Notes: a model not told the origin generated them from the letters alone. 51,592 bases of DNA from Candidatus Marsarchaeota G2 archaeon ECH_B_1 (GCA_003019535.1 NEXG01000005.1:1-51592); one strand, 5' to 3'. Counted from the stretch's first letter, positions 6,682 through 36,952 are shown. Program-made: numbers and translations.

Positions 6682-7083
6682 TCACTTTGAATTATGCTGT
6701 TTTATGAAGAGTTCAAGCAGTTTTGCGTAATCGTGGTGCCCATTTTCCTCTAGGTTTGCGGAGAGCTCCTTGAGTCGGTCTAGGTTCTCTTGTGTAAACA
6801 CCGAATTCAGGTATCCGCGTATAGCGTTGGGTGGCCGCGTAGGTATTTGTATTAGGGTTCGTGCAAGTTGTCGATACTCGTCGATCAACATGGGTAGAAA
6901 CACTTCGATCGCTGCGCTCACCCCTCGTAGGAGCGCAACGCTTGTTGTCATCGAGTAGGCGGAAGAAAGCTTCTTTGAGACTTCATCCAGTAATCGGGTC
7001 AGCTCGTCTTCGGGTTTGTCGAGCGGTTTTAGTTTCTCAAGTTCGGTACTTAGTATGCGTAACCTGCTTCTCGTGTCCTCCAC
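6682..7083 (-). CDS. Helical protein coupled to a winged-helix regulator
   Basis: A 133-residue, charged, mostly helical protein with no membrane segment and no motif I recognise. Heptad-like stretches (LRILSTELEKLKPL, LTRLLDEVSKKLSSAY) suggest a helical bundle. It starts with GTG inside the end of the upstream regulator gene (34-bp overlap), so the two are probably translated together and act together, for instance as an effector or partner of the DNA-binding protein. Function unknown. Confidence 0.6.
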   Translation of the reverse strand: MEDTRSRLRILSTELEKLKPLDKPEDELTRLLDEVSKKLSSAYSMTTSVALLRGVSAAIEVFLPMLIDEYRQLARTLIQIPTRPPNAIRGYLNSVFTQENLDRLKELSANLEENGHHDYAKLLELFIKQHNSK

Positions 7084-7349
7084 AGTATATAGGCCGACGG
7101 GTTTAGTTTGAAGATCACACCCCTTCCATCGGTTTTACCCTCGCTCTTTTGCAGGTAGCCGAGTCTCGCGAGCTTCTCAAGCCTCCCCACAAGTGTGGCA
7201 CGAGAGACCCCGCCCTCCACGCGTTCCGCAAGCGCGTTGAAATTCGGGCTCCCGGATTCACACAGGACCTCCAAGATTTTCCTATCCTTTCCATCGAGCC
7301 TTTCCTCCCCAAAGCGCTCAACCCCAAACATTTCGGTAGCCATGATCAC
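7050..7349 (-). CDS. Winged-helix transcriptional regulator (small, MarR/ArsR-like)
   Basis: A 99-residue DNA-binding protein. KILEVLCESGSPNFNALAER (helices 1-2), then SRATLVGRLEKLARLGYLQK (recognition helix and start of the wing) and GVIFKLNPSAYIL (wing and following strand) read as a standard winged helix. The start is GTG 7349 or ATG 7343; the TATA-like CTTAAATAG on the minus strand at about 7364-7372 would put the RNA start at or next to these, so the gene is probably leaderless. Three 8-bp half-sites lie directly upstream (7371-7395), suggesting autoregulation. Its reading frame runs into the following helical gene. Confidence 0.8.
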   Translation of the reverse strand: MIMATEMFGVERFGEERLDGKDRKILEVLCESGSPNFNALAERVEGGVSRATLVGRLEKLARLGYLQKSEGKTDGRGVIFKLNPSAYILWRTREAGYAY

Positions 7350-7370
7350 TTAACAGGTGCGTTCTATTTA

Positions 7371-7395
7371 AGTTTAATAATTAAACTATTAAACT
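7371..7395. promoter_or_regulatory. Candidate operator: AGTTTAAT / ATTAAACT half-sites
   Basis: AGTTTAAT (7371-7378), one base, ATTAAACT (7380-7387), then a second ATTAAACT (7388-7395). The first two form a perfect palindrome around A7379. The group overlaps the upstream edge of the TATA-like box of the winged-helix gene starting at 7349/7343. The sequence is A+T-rich, so chance similarity is possible, but three matching octamers at a promoter of a regulator is a usual operator pattern. Confidence 0.5.
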
Positions 7396-7553
7396 AATTT
7401 GCGTAACTAAAATAGTTTCTTTGTGCGGTGAACCAAACGCTTCTCCAAAGTTTCTGGTGAAAATGAAGATGAAAAGGGTATTTCTTACCACTACCGTATC
7501 GCTTCCTCTGTCCCTAAAGCGCTCCACCTTGCCTAGTAAGTCGGCGTCACATG

Positions 7554-7976
7554 TCAGTTGGTCAACATCCCCCGCCAGCCCCTAGTCCGCCTTAGAGTAT
7601 AAGCGGCGACCAAGATCGCAGTGTTGAATGCCGCGATGTATAGGAGGAGCCTATCCTGTACATAGGACGTGGAGGTTTGAAAGTCTAACACGAAGAATTG
7701 CGCCCAGAGGAACACAAGCACAAAGACGAGGGCCCAATTAAGGAGGCCTCCCCACCTTCTCCTCACACGTGCCGTAGACTCCGAAGTGACTATAACAATG
7801 AGTATAAAAGTCAACCCGATAATCGTCGTGAGAGTCGACATTCCCGTTACCGGGCTCCACGAGTTCGTGAGCAGGGTGTTAATCGCCACAAACATGGCCA
7901 ATATGCTGCCTGTGACTGCGAGCATAAGTGCGCTGAGAAACAAGTAGCCTACGACTCCACCAGCGCTAGGCCGCAT
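7554..7976 (-). CDS. Small four-helix membrane protein
   Basis: A 140-residue protein with four predicted membrane spans: YLFLSALMLAVTGSILAMFV, LTTIIGLTFILIVIV, LNWALVFVLVFLWAQFFVL and LLLYIAAFNTAILVAAY. A basic loop (ARVRRRWGG) between spans 2 and 3 suggests a cytoplasmic location for that loop. ATG start at 7976. No family recognised and no operon partner; the upstream side holds two MITE-like elements. Confidence 0.6.
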   Translation of the reverse strand: MRPSAGGVVGYLFLSALMLAVTGSILAMFVAINTLLTNSWSPVTGMSTLTTIIGLTFILIVIVTSESTARVRRRWGGLLNWALVFVLVFLWAQFFVLDFQTSTSYVQDRLLLYIAAFNTAILVAAYTLRRTRGWRGMLTN

Positions 7977-8026
7977 TTCAACCGCGAAATAAGGCCCTTA
8001 ACATATAAGGCTTTCAGTTAATAAGA

Positions 8027-8095
8027 GGCGCTGTCCGAATTAGTGCTGAGCGTGTGGACTATATGTGCTTAGAAATCTCTAATCCGGACACCGCC
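8027..8095. repeat. 69-bp MITE-like element, copy D
   Basis: Ends GGCGCTGTCCGAATTAG (8027-8043) and CTAATCCGGACACCGCC (8079-8095) are inverse complements with two mismatches in 17. Flanks AATAAGAG (8020-8027) and GATAAGAG (8096-8103) match at 7 of 8 positions, like a target-site duplication. Same length and end sequences as copies A, B and C. Confidence 0.75.
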
Positions 8096-8102
8096 GATAA
8101 GA

Positions 8103-8171
8103 GACAGTGTCCGAATAACACCTCTTCACGCTTGGAGGCCAACCACATCGTCCCCTAATTCGGACACTATC
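8103..8171. repeat. 69-bp MITE-like element, copy A
   Basis: Ends GACAGTGTCCGAAT and ATTCGGACACTATC are inverted repeats (13 of 14). The interior shares ATAAC and CACGCTTGGA with copy B (13879-13947). It lies 7 bp after copy D; no convincing duplication of its own is seen, so it may be a tandem insertion. Together A and D fill much of the 540-bp gap before the intact ATPase. Confidence 0.75.
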
Positions 8172-8456
8172 GGAAAGAACAAGTCTAGAGTATGCACCCA
8201 TAGGGCAAATACAGGTCTGGGTAAAGCTGGTCGAAAACCTAAATTGGAGTTTTCAGGGATGGGTTCACGGCTAGCTGCGATGGTGTGTTAAGCGAGGAGT
8301 ATGACTCCGTGGTATCCTATATGAAGCCAACACAACCTTTAGTTATATGGTAAAATGAGCCTAGCGGTTGAGGTTAGGGGCTTTACCTTATTTAGGATAG
8401 GGTGGTTCACGTGAACATTCCCTATGCATCTATCCTTAGGATTGTGGCGACATAGA

Positions 8457-8511
8457 ATTTATATTCGATGGAAGCAAATTTTGATTAGGGGACTAACTAA
8501 GTTAGGGGGGT
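8457..8511 (+). promoter_or_regulatory. TATA box, palindrome and ribosome-binding site of the ATPase gene
   Basis: TTTATATT (about 8457-8464) is a good archaeal TATA box. The expected RNA start falls near 8488-8492, where CTAACT-A-AGTTAG (8493-8505) forms a perfect palindrome. The G-run at about 8505-8510, GGGGGG just before the ATG at 8516, can serve as a Shine-Dalgarno, so this gene has a leader. A separate 12-bp palindrome GTTCACGTGAAC lies further upstream at 8405-8416. Confidence 0.55.
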
Positions 8512-8515
8512 AACC

Positions 8516-9571
8516 ATGTATTTTGATGCTGAGCCTAAGAGGGATATCAGGGACTTCTTCGACATGGAGGAGCAGTTACGAAACTTCGAATCCGCGCTAA
8601 ACAGGGGGAAACTGGTAGTTGTGAGCGGGCTCAGAAGATATGGGAAGACATCGCTGATCTTGACTGCTCTCAACAAGATGAACGTTCAGTACCTATTCTT
8701 GGATGCTAGGCTTCTCTCCGCATCCACGATGATATCCCTTAGTGATTTTCTAGGCGTTTTAGAGGATGCGCTAAACAGGGTGTCTTGGGGTAAAGCTGTG
8801 CTTAAAGGCGTGGAGGGTGTTGAGGTGGGCGGATTCGGTGTTAGATTTAGGAATAGGGGTCGTGAGACTCTTCTACACACCTTGCACGCTTTAAGTAGGA
8901 AGGTTATTGTTATCGACGAGGCACAGCTCCTGAGAAGGTCGAATGTAAGGTTCGACCAGCTTCTTGCCTATGTTTACGATCATGTGGACGCGAAAGTCGT
9001 GGTATCAGGTTCCCAGGTTGGCCTCCTCTACAGGTTCCTCAGGGCCGGCGACCCAGATGCACCCCTATTCGGCCGACCATATATAGAAGTAAGGCTGGGT
9101 AGGCTCTCACCAGAGAAGTCTAGGGAATTCCTCATTGAAGGTTTTTCACAGGAAGGGATAAATGTGGGGGACGCACTCGTAGATAAGGCGGTGAGCCTGT
9201 TCGACGGAGTCATAGGTTGGCTCACATATTTCGGGTTCACATACTCACGCTCAAAAGAGCAACCTGAAGACGTGTTCAGAAAGGCTTCGCGGTTGGCCGC
9301 CAAAGAGGCGTCGAGCATACTGAACACTTACGGTATAGCCAAAAGAAGGTATGCAGAGGTTCTAAGGACAATTGCCTCAAACGAGCAAGCCAGATGGAGC
9401 GAAATAAAAAGAGGTGTTGAGGCTAGGCTTGGAAGGATACCGAACAACGCGTTAGCCAACATACTTCGAAACCTAGTTGACAGCGGCTTGATCGAGAGAG
9501 GCCAAACGGGATACGCAATCCCCGACCCAGCCCTAAAAAACGGAGTGCTACACCACTTCTCAGGTCTCTAG
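8516..9571 (+). CDS. Archaeal-type ATPase (PF01637-like) with C-terminal winged helix
   Basis: Intact 351-residue STAND/AAA-like ATPase of the family common in multiple copies in archaeal genomes. Walker A is GLRRYGKTS (about residues 39-47), Walker B VIVIDEAQLL (about 131-140), sensor region VVSGSQVG, and the carboxy-terminal third is a winged helix (RYAEVLRTIASNE through NILRNLVDSGLIERG). The biological role of the family is unsettled; links to toxin-like, regulatory or mobile-element functions have been suggested. ATG start with a strong G-rich ribosome-binding site. The wing and the palindrome at its own promoter make autoregulation plausible. Paralogues at 6010 and 16357 are broken; this is the only intact one here. 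Confidence 0.9.
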   Translation: MYFDAEPKRDIRDFFDMEEQLRNFESALNRGKLVVVSGLRRYGKTSLILTALNKMNVQYLFLDARLLSASTMISLSDFLGVLEDALNRVSWGKAVLKGVEGVEVGGFGVRFRNRGRETLLHTLHALSRKVIVIDEAQLLRRSNVRFDQLLAYVYDHVDAKVVVSGSQVGLLYRFLRAGDPDAPLFGRPYIEVRLGRLSPEKSREFLIEGFSQEGINVGDALVDKAVSLFDGVIGWLTYFGFTYSRSKEQPEDVFRKASRLAAKEASSILNTYGIAKRRYAEVLRTIASNEQARWSEIKRGVEARLGRIPNNALANILRNLVDSGLIERGQTGYAIPDPALKNGVLHHFSGL

Positions 9572-30908: not shown

Positions 30909-31259
30909 GTTCAAGAATAACCCACAAAACATCTCATTTCTTTTAGCACAGCAAAACATCATGACTCTGAGTAAAGTCGCGCTGTTAGGCGCTATACAAC
31001 GATCTTAAAAAGACTCAATAGCGATTCTAATTCTTACTCATCACCTTAATACTGGGTAAAATCGGTGTAAATCTTTCCAGTGAAAGACGTGTCTCCGGTA
31101 ACCTTTGGAGGGTAGCCACCGAGTTGTGGGCCAAGTTTGACGCAACCTAAACGCCTCGTTCTCGATCTACCCTGGAAGCGATTCTACTTCAAAACACTGT
31201 GGCTAATGGCTCTAAAGAAAGGTTTAATACACTGTTCTTGAAGTTAGGTAACTGATTTT
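30909..31259. other. Intergenic region upstream of the protease operon
   Basis: No gene. GTTTAATA at about 31222-31229 is a TATA-like box roughly 32 bp before the ATG at 31260, so the protease operon has a very short leader. No clear operator seen. Confidence 0.45.
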
Positions 31260-34200
31260 ATGTTTAAACCGTTTAGTTTCGTGGTTTTAGTTATTATAGT
31301 GAGTATGGTTATAGCTACCGCTCCAAACGCTTCTGGGACCTTAGGGTACACTCAGGCCTCCTATGTTGGTCCCCCCCTTCTTGGGAGTGCTATTAAGCCT
31401 CTTCCAGCAAACTCTGAGGTCTGGTTGAGTTTCTTTCTGCCTCCCAGTAACTCCTCATCGATCAATTTTGTGGCCGAACAGGTTTCTCTCAAACACTTCC
31501 ACCCACTCAGCCAAGACGGGCTTCTGGGATACTATGCTCCCAATCAGAGTGAGTTTAATGGTGTGCTACACTTCTTGAACTCGCATGGCTTCAAGATCGT
31601 CTATGTGAGCCCAGACAGGTTCTCGATTGAAGGCTACGCCGAAGCATCCACAGTTGAATCACTCTTCCACACCACTTTGTATACATACAGCTACCAGGGC
31701 GAAACCTACTATGCACCCTCAACCCCTCCTCAGATCCCAAGCGGGCTGCAGGGGGTTGAGATAAGTGGGCTAACAAACCGAACACTAATACAGCCACAGT
31801 ACATTGTTTTGGGCGCGCTGAACGGCACCAGGATTGTGCCCTCAAACCTCCCACGCTCCACACCCAGTGTTGGGCTCACAACCGCCGCAACCTATTACGG
31901 CCCTAACGTGTTAGAGGATGCGTATGGCGTGAACACCCTTCTATCGAAGGGCTATGGGGGTAGGGGTCAAAGCATAGCGATCATTGATGCCTACGGTGAC
32001 CCACTCATCCAGCAAGACCTCGCGGCCTTCGACCAAGAGTTCGGCTTACCACCGGTCAACCTAACCATAGTCCCCGTGGGACCCTACCACCCCGAATACG
32101 GTGTGGCCACTGGATGGGATGTTGAGACTGCTCTCGACGTTGAGGCTGTTCACAGTATGGCTCCCTATGCACATATATACTTAGTGGTTGGCTTCAACCC
32201 AGTGGATGTCGCAAACGCCCTATTTGAAGCGATTGATTACGTGGTGAGTTCCGATCTGGCTAACGTCACAAGTATGAGTTGGGGTGGACCTGAGAACCTC
32301 TTCGGCGAGTCGGGGTTCTACTACTCGGGATTTCTGAATTACCCTTACGCTGACTACTACTTTGCGCTCGGAGCCGCTGAGGGTATATCTTTCTTTGCTG
32401 CGAGTGGTGATGAAGGTGCTTATGGGGGTACGCCAACCACGTATGGTAGCGTCCTGTTCCCAGCGTCTTCCCCGTTTGTGACAGCCGTGGGTGGAACAAC
32501 ACTCTACGTGAACGTCACATCTGGCTCAATAAGCCGGATGAATGCGAATGCAACTTACTCCTACGAGGAGGCGTGGAGCATATCCCCCGACTACTCGGGT
32601 GAGACGGTGTCCTCTGGGGGTGGTTACAGCACGCTGTTTCCGAAACCCTGGTACCAGATGGGGGTTGGCAGCTCAGTGTTCAGAAGCGTCCCCGACGTAG
32701 CCGCGGATGCAAACCCCTACACCGGCTTTGTCGTTCTGGTTGAAGGCCAAAAAGAAGTCGTAGGTGGCACAAGCCTGGCAACGCCTCTCTGGGCGGGCAT
32801 GACCTCCCTCCTTGACGAATACCTGAATGAGCCGCTCGGTCTACTTAACACCTACCTCTACCGCATCTACCAGAATGCATCGCTCTACTCTCAGGCGTTC
32901 CATCAGGTTAGCTTCGGATATAACGGCGCCTACTACGCATCGCGGGGATATAACTTGGTGACCGGACTAGGCTCGCCGGACCTCCCAGCGCTCGCGCAGG
33001 CCATCAAGAGTCTACCTCCACAGCTCGGAGTGGCGGTCACTCTGGGTGGGAGCGGCTCCTCTTTCCCACAGTTCTACTATGGTTCCACCGTCAGTGTGGG
33101 TGCGGCTATAACTTATCCCAACGGCACACTGGTTACGTCAGGTTCCTTCACTGCGTACGTTTATAATTCTGAGGGTGAATACGCCAGTGTGCCCTTGAGC
33201 TTTAATGGCTCCGAGTGGGTTGGCTCATTCACGGTTGGCTCCGGCGCACCCCCAAACACGTGGAGTGTAGTAGTCGAAGGCTCATCGGGGGGGATCGAAG
33301 GCTCAGGGGGCGCGGACATGCAGGTAGGCTTGAGTGTAGTCATAGTTCAGCCAGTACCCTATCCCTACGGTCCACCCATACCCCCCAACCAGCCTTTCAC
33401 TGTGACCGCCGCTGTAACATATCCTGATGGCTCGCCAGCCATCAACGCCTCCGTTACAGCGCTCTTCGAAAGGAACGGTGTGCCCATATTCAATGTGAGT
33501 CTTCTCCCCGTGAGCGATGAGCCAGGCGTATACGCAGGCGGGTACGCCCTCTTACCCAACCTCCCTCAAGGGGTGTACACGATGGTTGTGGACGCCAACC
33601 TCTCAGGCCAGTTGGGGGAGGCCTATACCTACGAGTACTTCGGAGAAGCGCTACTTATATCCACAATAATAACACCCTCACTCGACGCATTACCCTCAGC
33701 CTCGCCGGGTCAAACAATAACGCTATACACCGAGAGCCTTTCAGCCTCCGGGGGAGGGGTCTTCACCTCTAATGTGACGGCTGAATTCTTCAGTCCGGAT
33801 GGAGAGCTGGCCGCCAAGGTATACCTCAAGCCAGCCCCAAACGAGGTGCAATATGGCATTCTAAACCTGTTCTTCCTGCAGGAGGCGAACTTTACAGTCC
33901 CAGCCAACTTCTCGGCTGGCTTCTACACGGTGGTCTTTAACTCCACGTATGACGGCTCCTCAGGAATAGAGCAAGGCGTTTATGCGACTGCACTATACAT
34001 ATCGAATAAAGAGTTGGCATACCGTGTCCAAGCTCCATCGGAGGCATTAGAGGGTCAAACGCTTAATGTGAAGGCGTGGATATACTATCCTAACGGCACC
34101 CAGGTCACACGTGGCGTATTCATGCTAACGGCTCAGCCTGTGAACTATAATTTTGAATCATATATATTCGAAGAGAACACGGGTGTGCCGATGCAGTATA

Positions 34201-35180
34201 GCACCAACGCGGCCGCTTGGGTCGCTAACATCACGCTTCCATCTGTTCTTAAGGGAGGGTTCTACGCTGGGCTACCTCAGGGCTACCTCTCTGGTGCCTG
34301 GGACTTGGCTCTCACAGGCGAATCCTCTGGAGGCGTTCAAGCCCAGCAGTCATACGCCTACCTGAACGTTCTCCCCTACACCTATGTGGACATACATATG
34401 ATAACGCCCTCAAACCTGAGCTCAACACCGCTTATAGCCAACTCCTCAGGCCTCCCACTTCTCGAAGGCGTGGGCGCCACGAACCTCACGCTTAGCGGGG
34501 TAGACCTCACACTAAGGGGAGACTATCTAGACGGCTTAACAGTTGAGGGCGGATCACAAATAGTCTTGGTTGACTCAACACTTAGCCACATCAATATATT
34601 GGATTCCAAAGTCACAGTTATAGGTAGCACGGTAAATGGTGGAGGGGTTGGTGTGAGCCTTACAGACTCCAACCTCACAGTTCTCTCAACGACGTTCAAC
34701 AACCTAACCTACGCGTATAACCCTCTGAACAGCACTATACAAAGTGTGGATAACACGTATAGTGGGGTCTCAAACATCTCAACACTACCCACACCCACAT
34801 TCAAACTCACCACGCCCACTACAATCACAGGCACTCTAACTCGAATCAAATTGGTGGTCACCGGTTCTCAGCTTAGGGTGATCGGCGTGACCATTAATGG
34901 GGAGCCGGTCAACTTCAGTGTGACACCCACGAGCGGCGGCGTCCAGCTCAGTGTGCCCTTCAGCTCGTCCTCAAACCCGGACGGTGTGTACACGCTAGGC
35001 GTCACGGTCAGTTCGGGCCTGAGCTACACTCATGCGTTCAACATCGTGAACCTCTACCATCAGACCACCACCTACTACCTGCTTGGTGGACTCGGCGTCT
35101 TAGGCTTAGTACTGGGGCTTATAGCCATACTACTCGTGCTGAGGGGTAGACGCGCAGCGGCCACGGGGGGTCCGTCTTGA
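31260..35180 (+). CDS. Membrane-anchored sedolisin-type acid protease (S53) with Ig-like and beta-helix modules
   Basis: Secreted serine-carboxyl endopeptidase of 1306 residues, active in this family at acid pH. Signal peptide about 1-26; inhibitory prodomain about 45-190; catalytic domain about 220-580 with Glu289 and Asp293 (VETALD), oxyanion Asp384 (ASGDEGAYGG) and nucleophile Ser505 (GGTSLATPLWAG); YNLVTGLGSPD ends the domain and is the usual Ca site. Then several beta-sandwich repeats (about 590-1050), a right-handed beta-helix-like stretch (about 1070-1160, LTLSGVDLTLRG, LVDSTLSHINIL), and a carboxy-terminal membrane helix (LLGGLGVLGLVLGLIAILLV) with basic tail. Many N-glycosylation sequons. 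Overlaps the next gene at TTGA. Confidence 0.94.
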   Translation: MFKPFSFVVLVIIVSMVIATAPNASGTLGYTQASYVGPPLLGSAIKPLPANSEVWLSFFLPPSNSSSINFVAEQVSLKHFHPLSQDGLLGYYAPNQSEFNGVLHFLNSHGFKIVYVSPDRFSIEGYAEASTVESLFHTTLYTYSYQGETYYAPSTPPQIPSGLQGVEISGLTNRTLIQPQYIVLGALNGTRIVPSNLPRSTPSVGLTTAATYYGPNVLEDAYGVNTLLSKGYGGRGQSIAIIDAYGDPLIQQDLAAFDQEFGLPPVNLTIVPVGPYHPEYGVATGWDVETALDVEAVHSMAPYAHIYLVVGFNPVDVANALFEAIDYVVSSDLANVTSMSWGGPENLFGESGFYYSGFLNYPYADYYFALGAAEGISFFAASGDEGAYGGTPTTYGSVLFPASSPFVTAVGGTTLYVNVTSGSISRMNANATYSYEEAWSISPDYSGETVSSGGGYSTLFPKPWYQMGVGSSVFRSVPDVAADANPYTGFVVLVEGQKEVVGGTSLATPLWAGMTSLLDEYLNEPLGLLNTYLYRIYQNASLYSQAFHQVSFGYNGAYYASRGYNLVTGLGSPDLPALAQAIKSLPPQLGVAVTLGGSGSSFPQFYYGSTVSVGAAITYPNGTLVTSGSFTAYVYNSEGEYASVPLSFNGSEWVGSFTVGSGAPPNTWSVVVEGSSGGIEGSGGADMQVGLSVVIVQPVPYPYGPPIPPNQPFTVTAAVTYPDGSPAINASVTALFERNGVPIFNVSLLPVSDEPGVYAGGYALLPNLPQGVYTMVVDANLSGQLGEAYTYEYFGEALLISTIITPSLDALPSASPGQTITLYTESLSASGGGVFTSNVTAEFFSPDGELAAKVYLKPAPNEVQYGILNLFFLQEANFTVPANFSAGFYTVVFNSTYDGSSGIEQGVYATALYISNKELAYRVQAPSEALEGQTLNVKAWIYYPNGTQVTRGVFMLTAQPVNYNFESYIFEENTGVPMQYSTNAAAWVANITLPSVLKGGFYAGLPQGYLSGAWDLALTGESSGGVQAQQSYAYLNVLPYTYVDIHMITPSNLSSTPLIANSSGLPLLEGVGATNLTLSGVDLTLRGDYLDGLTVEGGSQIVLVDSTLSHINILDSKVTVIGSTVNGGGVGVSLTDSNLTVLSTTFNNLTYAYNPLNSTIQSVDNTYSGVSNISTLPTPTFKLTTPTTITGTLTRIKLVVTGSQLRVIGVTINGEPVNFSVTPTSGGVQLSVPFSSSSNPDGVYTLGVTVSSGLSYTHAFNIVNLYHQTTTYYLLGGLGVLGLVLGLIAILLVLRGRRAAATGGPS

Positions 35181-36952
35181 TTCGCCCACTCTTCACACTC
35201 CTAATATTGATTTCAGCCCTCACACCTGCTGCAGCGGTGGCTAGGATCCCTCTAATGCAACACAGCCACGAGTTGGCGCAGCATGCGCCTCCACTAGTTA
35301 ACTCAACCATAGGCGACCCCAGTGGGCTGGTTACGAGCTATTATTCATTCGGCGCGTACCAACCCAAGTTGCCTAGCGTTAAACCCGATGTTGTTGTGAT
35401 CGCCAATAACGTGGTGTTCAACAACACTGGCCCAACACCCTACACGGTTAGCGTGATCATCCCAGACGTGAACTACTCGCTCGGGGTGCTCAACGTCTCC
35501 ATAAGGGAGTATGGGGGGGCGCAGTATGATAGGCCGGTCTACGTTTTCGCCGACGGCGTACCCATATTCTGGGGCTCAACTCAGGAGATTTATAACTCCA
35601 CGGCTGCCTCGGACGTCACACTCTATGAGAATATGCTTAGAGGTAATGTGACATTCCAGATAGTGGTTGTGAACTATTATGATGCCAGTGTGGGTATCAC
35701 GGGTGTATACGCAGTGAACGTTTCACTTTACCTTTACCCAGGAGCGCCCCCCGCAGGGCTACCCACCGAATTCATACCCCTCTGGGTTAACCCCTTAGGC
35801 TACTCCGCGGTAACCCTTAACCCATTTCAGGAGTCATTCAGCGAACAGGTCGAGTTGCCGGCCGGCACATATAGGGCGGCCGCACTGGTGTACACGGAGG
35901 GTGGGGGTAACGATGAGTTCTGGTACGCTAACGAGCCCGCCACAAGGAGTGTGCTCCTCTACTATAACGGCTTCCTAGCGGACGTGGTGAACCCCTTCGA
36001 GACGCTCTACACGGGTGGCGTAGACCTCTTTTACTGGAAACCCATGCCCTCCATAAACGCGTTATCTTTCCATAATCCATATATAGCTGAGCTCACACCC
36101 CTACTGGCAACCGGGCTTAACGCAACGCTCAGTGTGAGTGTGACCAACTTGGCGGAGGCCTACGAACTCACGGGTTCACCCTTCTTCTCTTGGACTCTGA
36201 GCGGTGCGCTCGCGTTGTGGGTGAACCCCTCCAACCCCCTCCTATCTGGGAGGCTACTCACCGCTAAGCAGGTCTACTTTGACTCCGCGCCCATCTTCAA
36301 CCCAAGCTTTTCAGGCGAGGTCTACCAGGAGGTGGGTCACTATTTTCTCGACTACTCGGCAACCCTGAGCTTCGAGCATGGCTACGAAAACACCCAGGTG
36401 GTGCAGAGGGGCTCATTTAACGCGTATCAGACGCTGTCAACGCTTCTGGAGAGTGCGGTGTTGAATGAGCAATTCTCAGAGCGGGCTACCGACACAGGAA
36501 TATACAACGCTTCAATCATCTTTGAGGGGAACTACCCCGTCAGGTTGGTGTACAGTGCGTTCGCAACACCCATAACGAACCCAAGCGTCATCCCCTACAA
36601 GCTGGTGTACGCTCAGAACGGAAGCATCAGTTTGGGCTTCAATGTACTATATGAATCCTCGTACGCCTCTCAAAACTATACACAAAGCGTTAACGAGAAC
36701 CTGCTAGCGACAGGGGGATTCTCAGCAATACTTGAAGTCATAAACCAGTACGGTGGAAGTGTGGTGCTCTCACTTGGCACCAACTACGCCCAGACCACTA
36801 AGACGCTAATCGCCGAGTGGCTCACGGACGGTCAAGGAATAGCGGAGCGCTTCCAAGCAACCGCTGTATCCCCCAACGTAACAGACTCGGCAGGGTACTA
36901 CTCCACCTTCAGTGTTAGCTATGTATTAGTTGTTCCCTTCGAACAGGCTTAA
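35177..36952 (+). CDS. PNGase A-like peptide N-glycanase (PF12222-like), secreted
   Basis: A 591-residue protein with signal peptide (RPLFTLLILISALTPAAAVA). Two hallmark blocks of the PNGase A family are present: DRPVYVFADGVPIFWGSTQE (about 118-137; family DRxxxVxxxGVExxRxSTxE) and VYTEGGGNDEFWYAN (about 239-253; family GxGxxEFWY). Members cleave the bond between N-glycans and Asn. The body is all-beta with many Asn-X-Ser/Thr sites, normal for an archaeal exoenzyme. TTG start overlaps the protease stop by 4 bp (TTGA), so the two are co-translated. No membrane anchor at the carboxy end. The assignment rests on motifs; activity untested. Confidence 0.82.
   Translation: MIRPLFTLLILISALTPAAAVARIPLMQHSHELAQHAPPLVNSTIGDPSGLVTSYYSFGAYQPKLPSVKPDVVVIANNVVFNNTGPTPYTVSVIIPDVNYSLGVLNVSIREYGGAQYDRPVYVFADGVPIFWGSTQEIYNSTAASDVTLYENMLRGNVTFQIVVVNYYDASVGITGVYAVNVSLYLYPGAPPAGLPTEFIPLWVNPLGYSAVTLNPFQESFSEQVELPAGTYRAAALVYTEGGGNDEFWYANEPATRSVLLYYNGFLADVVNPFETLYTGGVDLFYWKPMPSINALSFHNPYIAELTPLLATGLNATLSVSVTNLAEAYELTGSPFFSWTLSGALALWVNPSNPLLSGRLLTAKQVYFDSAPIFNPSFSGEVYQEVGHYFLDYSATLSFEHGYENTQVVQRGSFNAYQTLSTLLESAVLNEQFSERATDTGIYNASIIFEGNYPVRLVYSAFATPITNPSVIPYKLVYAQNGSISLGFNVLYESSYASQNYTQSVNENLLATGGFSAILEVINQYGGSVVLSLGTNYAQTTKTLIAEWLTDGQGIAERFQATAVSPNVTDSAGYYSTFSVSYVLVVPFEQA

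Follow-up and report, generated by a model that had tools for sequence, protein, structure and literature searches.

A conserved gene pair encoding a membrane-anchored sedolisin and a PNGase A-family protein in thermoacidophilic Thermoproteota

The window analysed here is a 51,592-nucleotide stretch of the Candidatus Marsarchaeota G2 archaeon ECH_B_1 genome (GCA_003019535.1, NEXG01000005.1:1-51592). It carries a gene for a sedolisin (peptidase family S53), followed on the same strand by a gene for a PNGase A-family protein (Table 1). The two open reading frames share four bases, in which the TTG start codon of the PNGase gene runs into the TGA stop codon of the sedolisin gene. This overlap had been reported in a sequence-only reading of the window, and it was confirmed; the co-translation that the same reading derived from it is suggested by the overlap. 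A TATA-like element precedes the sedolisin gene, and a transcript initiated from it would be nearly leaderless. The best match to the YTTTTAWA consensus covers 7 of 8 positions before the sedolisin gene and 4 of 8 in the 50 bases preceding the PNGase start. Over 28 linked loci, the mean match is 7.0 for S53 versus 5.9 for PNGase genes, a comparison that concerns the consensus only and in which the contrast between AT-rich intergenic and coding sequence favours S53. Judging by the overlap and the TATA-like element, both genes may be carried by a single transcript.

Table 1. Features of the sedolisin–PNGase locus; positions are counted from the first nucleotide of the window.
Feature	Position	Strand	Details or basis
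TATA-like element TTTAATA, closely preceded by a purine-rich stretch	31223..31229	+	31 bases before the S53 start
Sedolisin (peptidase family S53), exported and membrane-anchored	31260..35180	+	1306 aa; PF09286 E 2.4e-16; kumamolisin 1t1e E 3e-33
Pro-kumamolisin activation domain (PF09286), residues 46-165	31395..31754	+	profile match
S53 catalytic domain, about residues 209-586	31884..33017	+	alignment to kumamolisin
S53 catalytic E289	32124-32126	+	kumamolisin alignment
S53 catalytic D293	32136-32138	+	kumamolisin alignment
S53 oxyanion D384 (SGDEG motif)	32409-32411	+	kumamolisin alignment
S53 catalytic S505 (GGTSLATP motif)	32772-32774	+	kumamolisin alignment
Ig/macroglobulin-like beta-sandwich array, residues 589-1038	33024..34373	+	AlphaFold2 secondary structure
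Short parallel beta-helix-like segment, residues 1067-1183	34458..34808	+	model with short regular strands
C-terminal transmembrane helix, residues 1266-1298, then a short tail	35055..35153	+	hydropathy; helix 680-712 of the model
TTGA overlap: PNGase TTG start and sedolisin TGA stop	35177..35180	+	sequence
PNGase A-family protein (peptide:N-glycanase-like amidase)	35177..36952	+	591 aa; PF12222 E 2.5e-28
PF12222 domain, residues 78-353	35408..36235	+	PF12222 profile
Candidate catalytic D118 (QYDR motif)	35528-35530	+	alignment invariance
Candidate catalytic E247 (DEFW motif)	35915-35917	+	alignment invariance

The first protein has a prodomain, the catalytic Glu, Asp and Ser residues and the oxyanion Asp, and its residues 209-582 align with kumamolisin, which bears out its earlier assignment as a sedolisin. 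It begins with a signal peptide or hydrophobic N-terminus and is a predicted acid endopeptidase of the S53 family; sedolisins in general work in acid (PMC6278154). The prodomain, the Glu-Asp-Ser triad, the oxyanion Asp and the secreted acid-protease type are common to this protein and to kumamolisin, whereas an extension of about 700 aa with Ig/MG-like and beta-helix parts and the C-terminal membrane anchor are additions of the archaeal protein. A similar protein length is common among the archaeal S53 paralogs that are not linked to a PNGase gene. The last 720 residues were modelled with AlphaFold2 from eight sequences (pLDDT 80.3, pTM 0.40), and in the model, Ig/macroglobulin-like sandwiches are followed by a short beta-helix, one further sandwich and, at the end, a helix. 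The model and hydropathy agree with the earlier description of a membrane-anchored protease with Ig-like and beta-helix modules. The match of the sandwich array to MG2 (PF01835) is weak (E 1.9e-5, under the PF01835 cut-off), and a Foldseek search with this half of the protein returned, as the best hits, alpha-2-macroglobulin and complement MG-domain arrays, which are generic matches of low TM.

The second protein has a predicted signal peptide and, according to hydropathy, no C-terminal membrane helix. Its PF12222 score is 99.2 bits against a curated cut-off of 25.3. The only PDB sequence match is PNGase Bb (9vla; E 2e-7, profile E 8.2e-22), and the AlphaFold2 model (pLDDT 81.9) matches the same structure over its full length (E 8.7e-27, TM 0.67/0.73, 17% identity in the structural alignment). 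Next come zebrafish acid PNGase, PNGase F (1pnf, E 4.8e-9) and further members of that family. All of the best 16 PDB structure matches are PNGases or are so annotated, two of these entries being a putative hydrolase and a putative PNGase. Thus, the model shows the PNGase double jelly-roll fold of 9vla and 1pnf, and the profile and fold searches uphold the PNGase A-like identity proposed earlier.

The candidate catalytic residues of the second protein lie in its QYDR and DEFW motifs. D118, D246, E247 and W249 are invariant in a 20-row archaeal alignment, whose members are 24-52% identical to the window protein; R119 is invariant too, in a 15-row alignment. The catalytic residues of PNGase F are D60 and E206 (PMC12753239), and in the 1pnf sequence they are located in the motifs WDR59-61 and AEW205-207. 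An hhalign alignment to PNGase F is weak (probability 12%); it spans the D118-E247 interval in a compatible register and includes neither residue. D118 and E247 are likely the counterparts of D60 and E206, which is a strong lead drawn from motif comparison.

Almond PNGase A, Terriglobus PNGase H+ and PNGase Bb resemble the archaeal protein in the PF12222 domain, predicted fold and secretion, and PNGase Bb retains both the QYDR and the DE-W motifs. Unlike these family members, the archaeal protein comes from a hot-acid host and its gene overlaps a protease gene; its activity is a predicted one. An acid optimum is a feature of PNGase A and PNGase H+: the plant enzyme works at acidic pH (PMC12753239), and its Terriglobus relative works best at pH 2.6 (PMC4231336). 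In the fish acid PNGase Ngly2, acid de-N-glycosylation is likewise tied to protein breakdown (PMC12753239), and the PNGase fold is related (9lwg, E 8.8e-11); however, Ngly2 is a lysosomal animal protein with PNGase F-type domains.

To assess how widespread the pair is, 398 Thermoproteota genomes were surveyed, including those of Metallosphaera yellowstonensis, M. javensis, Candidatus Aramenus and Caldisphaera. PF12222 was found in 33 genomes and PF09286 in 50. In 24 of the 33 PF12222 genomes, the gene immediately before that of the PNGase, in the same orientation, encodes an S53 peptidase. Of these 24 loci, 17 have a junction spacing of -4 bases, six others have values between -20 and +7, and one has +110. 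Where the window has TTG, its relatives start the PNGase with ATG or GTG, giving ATGA or GTGA overlaps, and a purine-rich GGTG/GAGG stretch often precedes this start. An alignment query of named genomes returned 17 loci, whereas a single-protein query of the same genomes returned nothing; five further pairs were found in named genomes, including Sulfolobales archaeon HS-7 and Acd1. The pairing is therefore not confined to one genome, as the sequence-only reading left conceivable. A contig labelled 'Euryarchaeota' (CPBay_Spr30G08_79) also has the pair; its nearest relative is the Sulfolobaceae member G334, and the contig is possibly mislabelled or misbinned.

The pair is present in four family-level groups, namely that of the window (in this genome alone), the Sulfolobaceae, the Caldisphaera-containing family and one family outside the class. 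Only small sets of loci, mostly from close relatives, have neighbouring genes in common; thus, the two genes stay together in changing surroundings. Adjacency has been lost in genomes G277 and G287, which keep both genes apart. Chance or an assembly artefact was rejected as an explanation: single-contig genomes have the pair too, and the gene downstream of it in the window, encoding a helicase, has relatives of 48-55% identity in four of the five other genomes of the family, where the upstream gene is only weakly matched. Since the flanks vary, a larger conserved operon was discarded as well. The adjacency recurs in many genomes, far beyond chance, and the S53-PNGase A pair is a genuine conserved two-gene module.

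Phylogeny of 68 S53 domains was analysed, and all 28 PNGase-linked S53s fell into one clade with support of 98/98. Only three unlinked S53s belong to this clade (the G277 and G287 proteins and a second copy in G334), and all three come from genomes that also encode a PNGase. Outside the clade lie the other S53 paralogs sampled from these genomes and the S53s sampled from genomes without PF12222. The distances of S53 and PNGase are correlated (r = 0.81; 0 of 2000 permutations). Shared genome ancestry inflates both the clade and the distance test, although the unshared flanks argue that ancestry does not account for everything. The teamwork of the two proteins proposed from the sequence is thus upheld in a comparative-genomic sense, by conserved adjacency, a dedicated S53 clade, co-divergence and unshared flanks. 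One S53-containing open frame, of 2616 aa in G305 (locus L111 3-7850), is twice the usual length.

PNGase genes without an adjoining S53 gene also occur. No S53 lies beside the divergent PF12222 proteins of the Desulfurococcaceae and of some Acidilobaceae-type genomes, and in the PNGase tree the unlinked Desulfurococcaceae and Acidilobaceae-type proteins are outside the linked group. The Vulcanisaeta PF12222 protein, a closer one, has no S53 beside it either. These genes indicate that the PNGase can work alone. In Vulcanisaeta distributa (loci L065 9337-11135 and L085), as well as in locus L064 12410-14261, the PNGase gene is represented by two overlapping ORFs, reflecting either a frameshift or a true split. 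PF12222 is absent from all nine family or order relatives of the window genome that were searched, mostly incomplete genomes, so that one genome of ten in the order has it; the module is either dispensable or was acquired in this lineage, and the gap may reflect loss, absence or recent gain. Carriage by a mobile element found no support: the alignment query revealed no relative in IMG/VR, and plasmids gave only a remote Streptomyces match.

We propose that the two genes form an operon for an extracellular acid protease and an acid PNGase that jointly degrade N-glycosylated proteins in the hot, acidic surroundings of the cell, and we assign this reading a probability of about 0.62. The protease, tethered by its C-terminal helix, would open glycoproteins and yield glycopeptides, on which the secreted PNGase would hydrolyse the amide bond between GlcNAc and Asn, so that the glycan is released and Asp remains; deglycosylation would then permit further proteolysis and peptide uptake. 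By analogy with other PNGases, this order, in which proteolysis comes before deglycosylation and is completed after it, is no less likely than one that starts with deglycosylation. Glycopeptides, and probably also unstructured proteins, are substrates of fish acid PNGases, which fail to act on a constrained glycopeptide and on some intact glycoproteins (PMC12753239). The 9vla structure of PNGase Bb was solved with a glycopeptide. A glycopeptide-first route has also been suggested for Bacteroides PNGases (PMC9522356). In the Bacteroides N-glycan degradation loci, the PNGase is likewise encoded together with other enzymes of glycoprotein-glycan breakdown; however, glycoside hydrolases are the partners described there and the PNGase belongs to type F, while the archaeal partner is a protease.

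The likely substrates would be S-layer proteins and exoproteins from the thermoacidophilic community around the cell, with N-glycans that have a PNGase-cleavable HexNAc2 core. PNGase F releases the N-glycans QuiS1Hex4HexNAc2, a HexNAc2-containing heptasaccharide, from a Sulfolobus strain (PMC12042106). N-glycosylated proteins are to be expected in ECH_B_1 itself, whose genome has a gene for an STT3/AglB oligosaccharyltransferase. In G277 (locus L041 6242-10855), the unlinked PNGase gene lies directly behind a gene for an oligopeptide-binding protein with PKD domains (SBP_bac_5, E 1e-39), which is a hint of peptide scavenging. Both enzymes are themselves rich in N-X-S/T sequons: there are 29 in the sedolisin and 12 in the PNGase versus 12.1 and 6.2 in shuffled sequences, and the mean density is 3.4 per 100 aa in linked PNGases and 1.5 in unlinked ones. 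A PNGase active outside the cell would therefore meet its own and its partner's glycans, which counts against the joint degradation that we favour, as do the PNGase genes without an adjoining S53, the low identity to PNGase Bb and the lack of PF12222 in the relatives searched.

The main rival reading is that the same enzymes serve the cell's own envelope, in the turnover or quality control of nearby S-layer and surface proteins that are N-glycosylated. The membrane anchor of the protease fits such a role, as do the AglB/STT3 gene, the PNGase-releasable N-glycans of the Sulfolobus strain itself and the occurrence of the pair mainly in the Sulfolobaceae and their relatives. However, envelope maintenance would hardly be expected to show the patchy distribution seen in the window's order, the PNGase carries a signal peptide but lacks an anchor, and its G277 counterpart adjoins a peptide-binding protein gene; we consider own-envelope housekeeping unlikely. 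The second protein might also combine a PNGase fold with another activity, either as a different glycan amidase or as a glycan-binding subunit that guides the protease. It is remote from the characterised PNGases, as its low identity to 9vla and the weak alignment to PNGase F alone indicate, and PNGase-like double jelly-roll folds occur in non-PNGase proteins too (PMC8812541). Yet the residues D118, D246, E247 and W249, invariant in the archaeal set, are kept in PNGase Bb, and the leading structural matches are all PNGases or annotated as such, which makes another activity distinctly improbable.

Adjacency could, moreover, be a historical or regulatory convenience, with two independent acid-scavenging exoenzymes sharing an operon and not a substrate. 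Such independence would suit G277, G287 and the PNGase-only genomes; however, the unit persists in four family-level groups without common flanks, and one S53 clade is linked although the same genomes hold several S53 paralogs. Mere convenience thus appears very doubtful. As for joint degradation, its broader form, a dedicated archaeal module of surface-tethered acid protease and acid PNGase that is co-inherited in thermoacidophilic Thermoproteota and dismantles S-layer-type N-glycoproteins, has in our estimate about even odds.

Both protein families are known, and their conserved pairing appears to be undescribed: no description was found in a literature search that reached a minority of subscription papers. 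If the proposed module is real, the archaeal PNGase A-family proteins would gain a role, and envelope recycling in hot acid would gain a defined route. The pair names two candidate enzymes for the hot-acid breakdown of N-glycosylated S-layer protein, which ranks among the major proteins of these communities. It occurs in cultivable Metallosphaera, and both families are also present in Sulfolobus acidocaldarius, making genetic and biochemical tests feasible. A thermostable acid PNGase active on glycopeptides would be a useful tool for glycomics.

A second PF12222 gene is located on another contig of the ECH_B_1 genome (locus L005, 3065-4758, minus strand). It is broken into three frames of 122, 294 and 159 aa and is either decayed or mis-sequenced. 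The possibility that acid proteases in general neighbour PNGases was rejected, as no thermopsin lies near the other PNGases in the neighbourhoods checked. The broken gene does have one 2.2 kb upstream (PF05317, E 9.2e-47; 6997-9111, minus strand).
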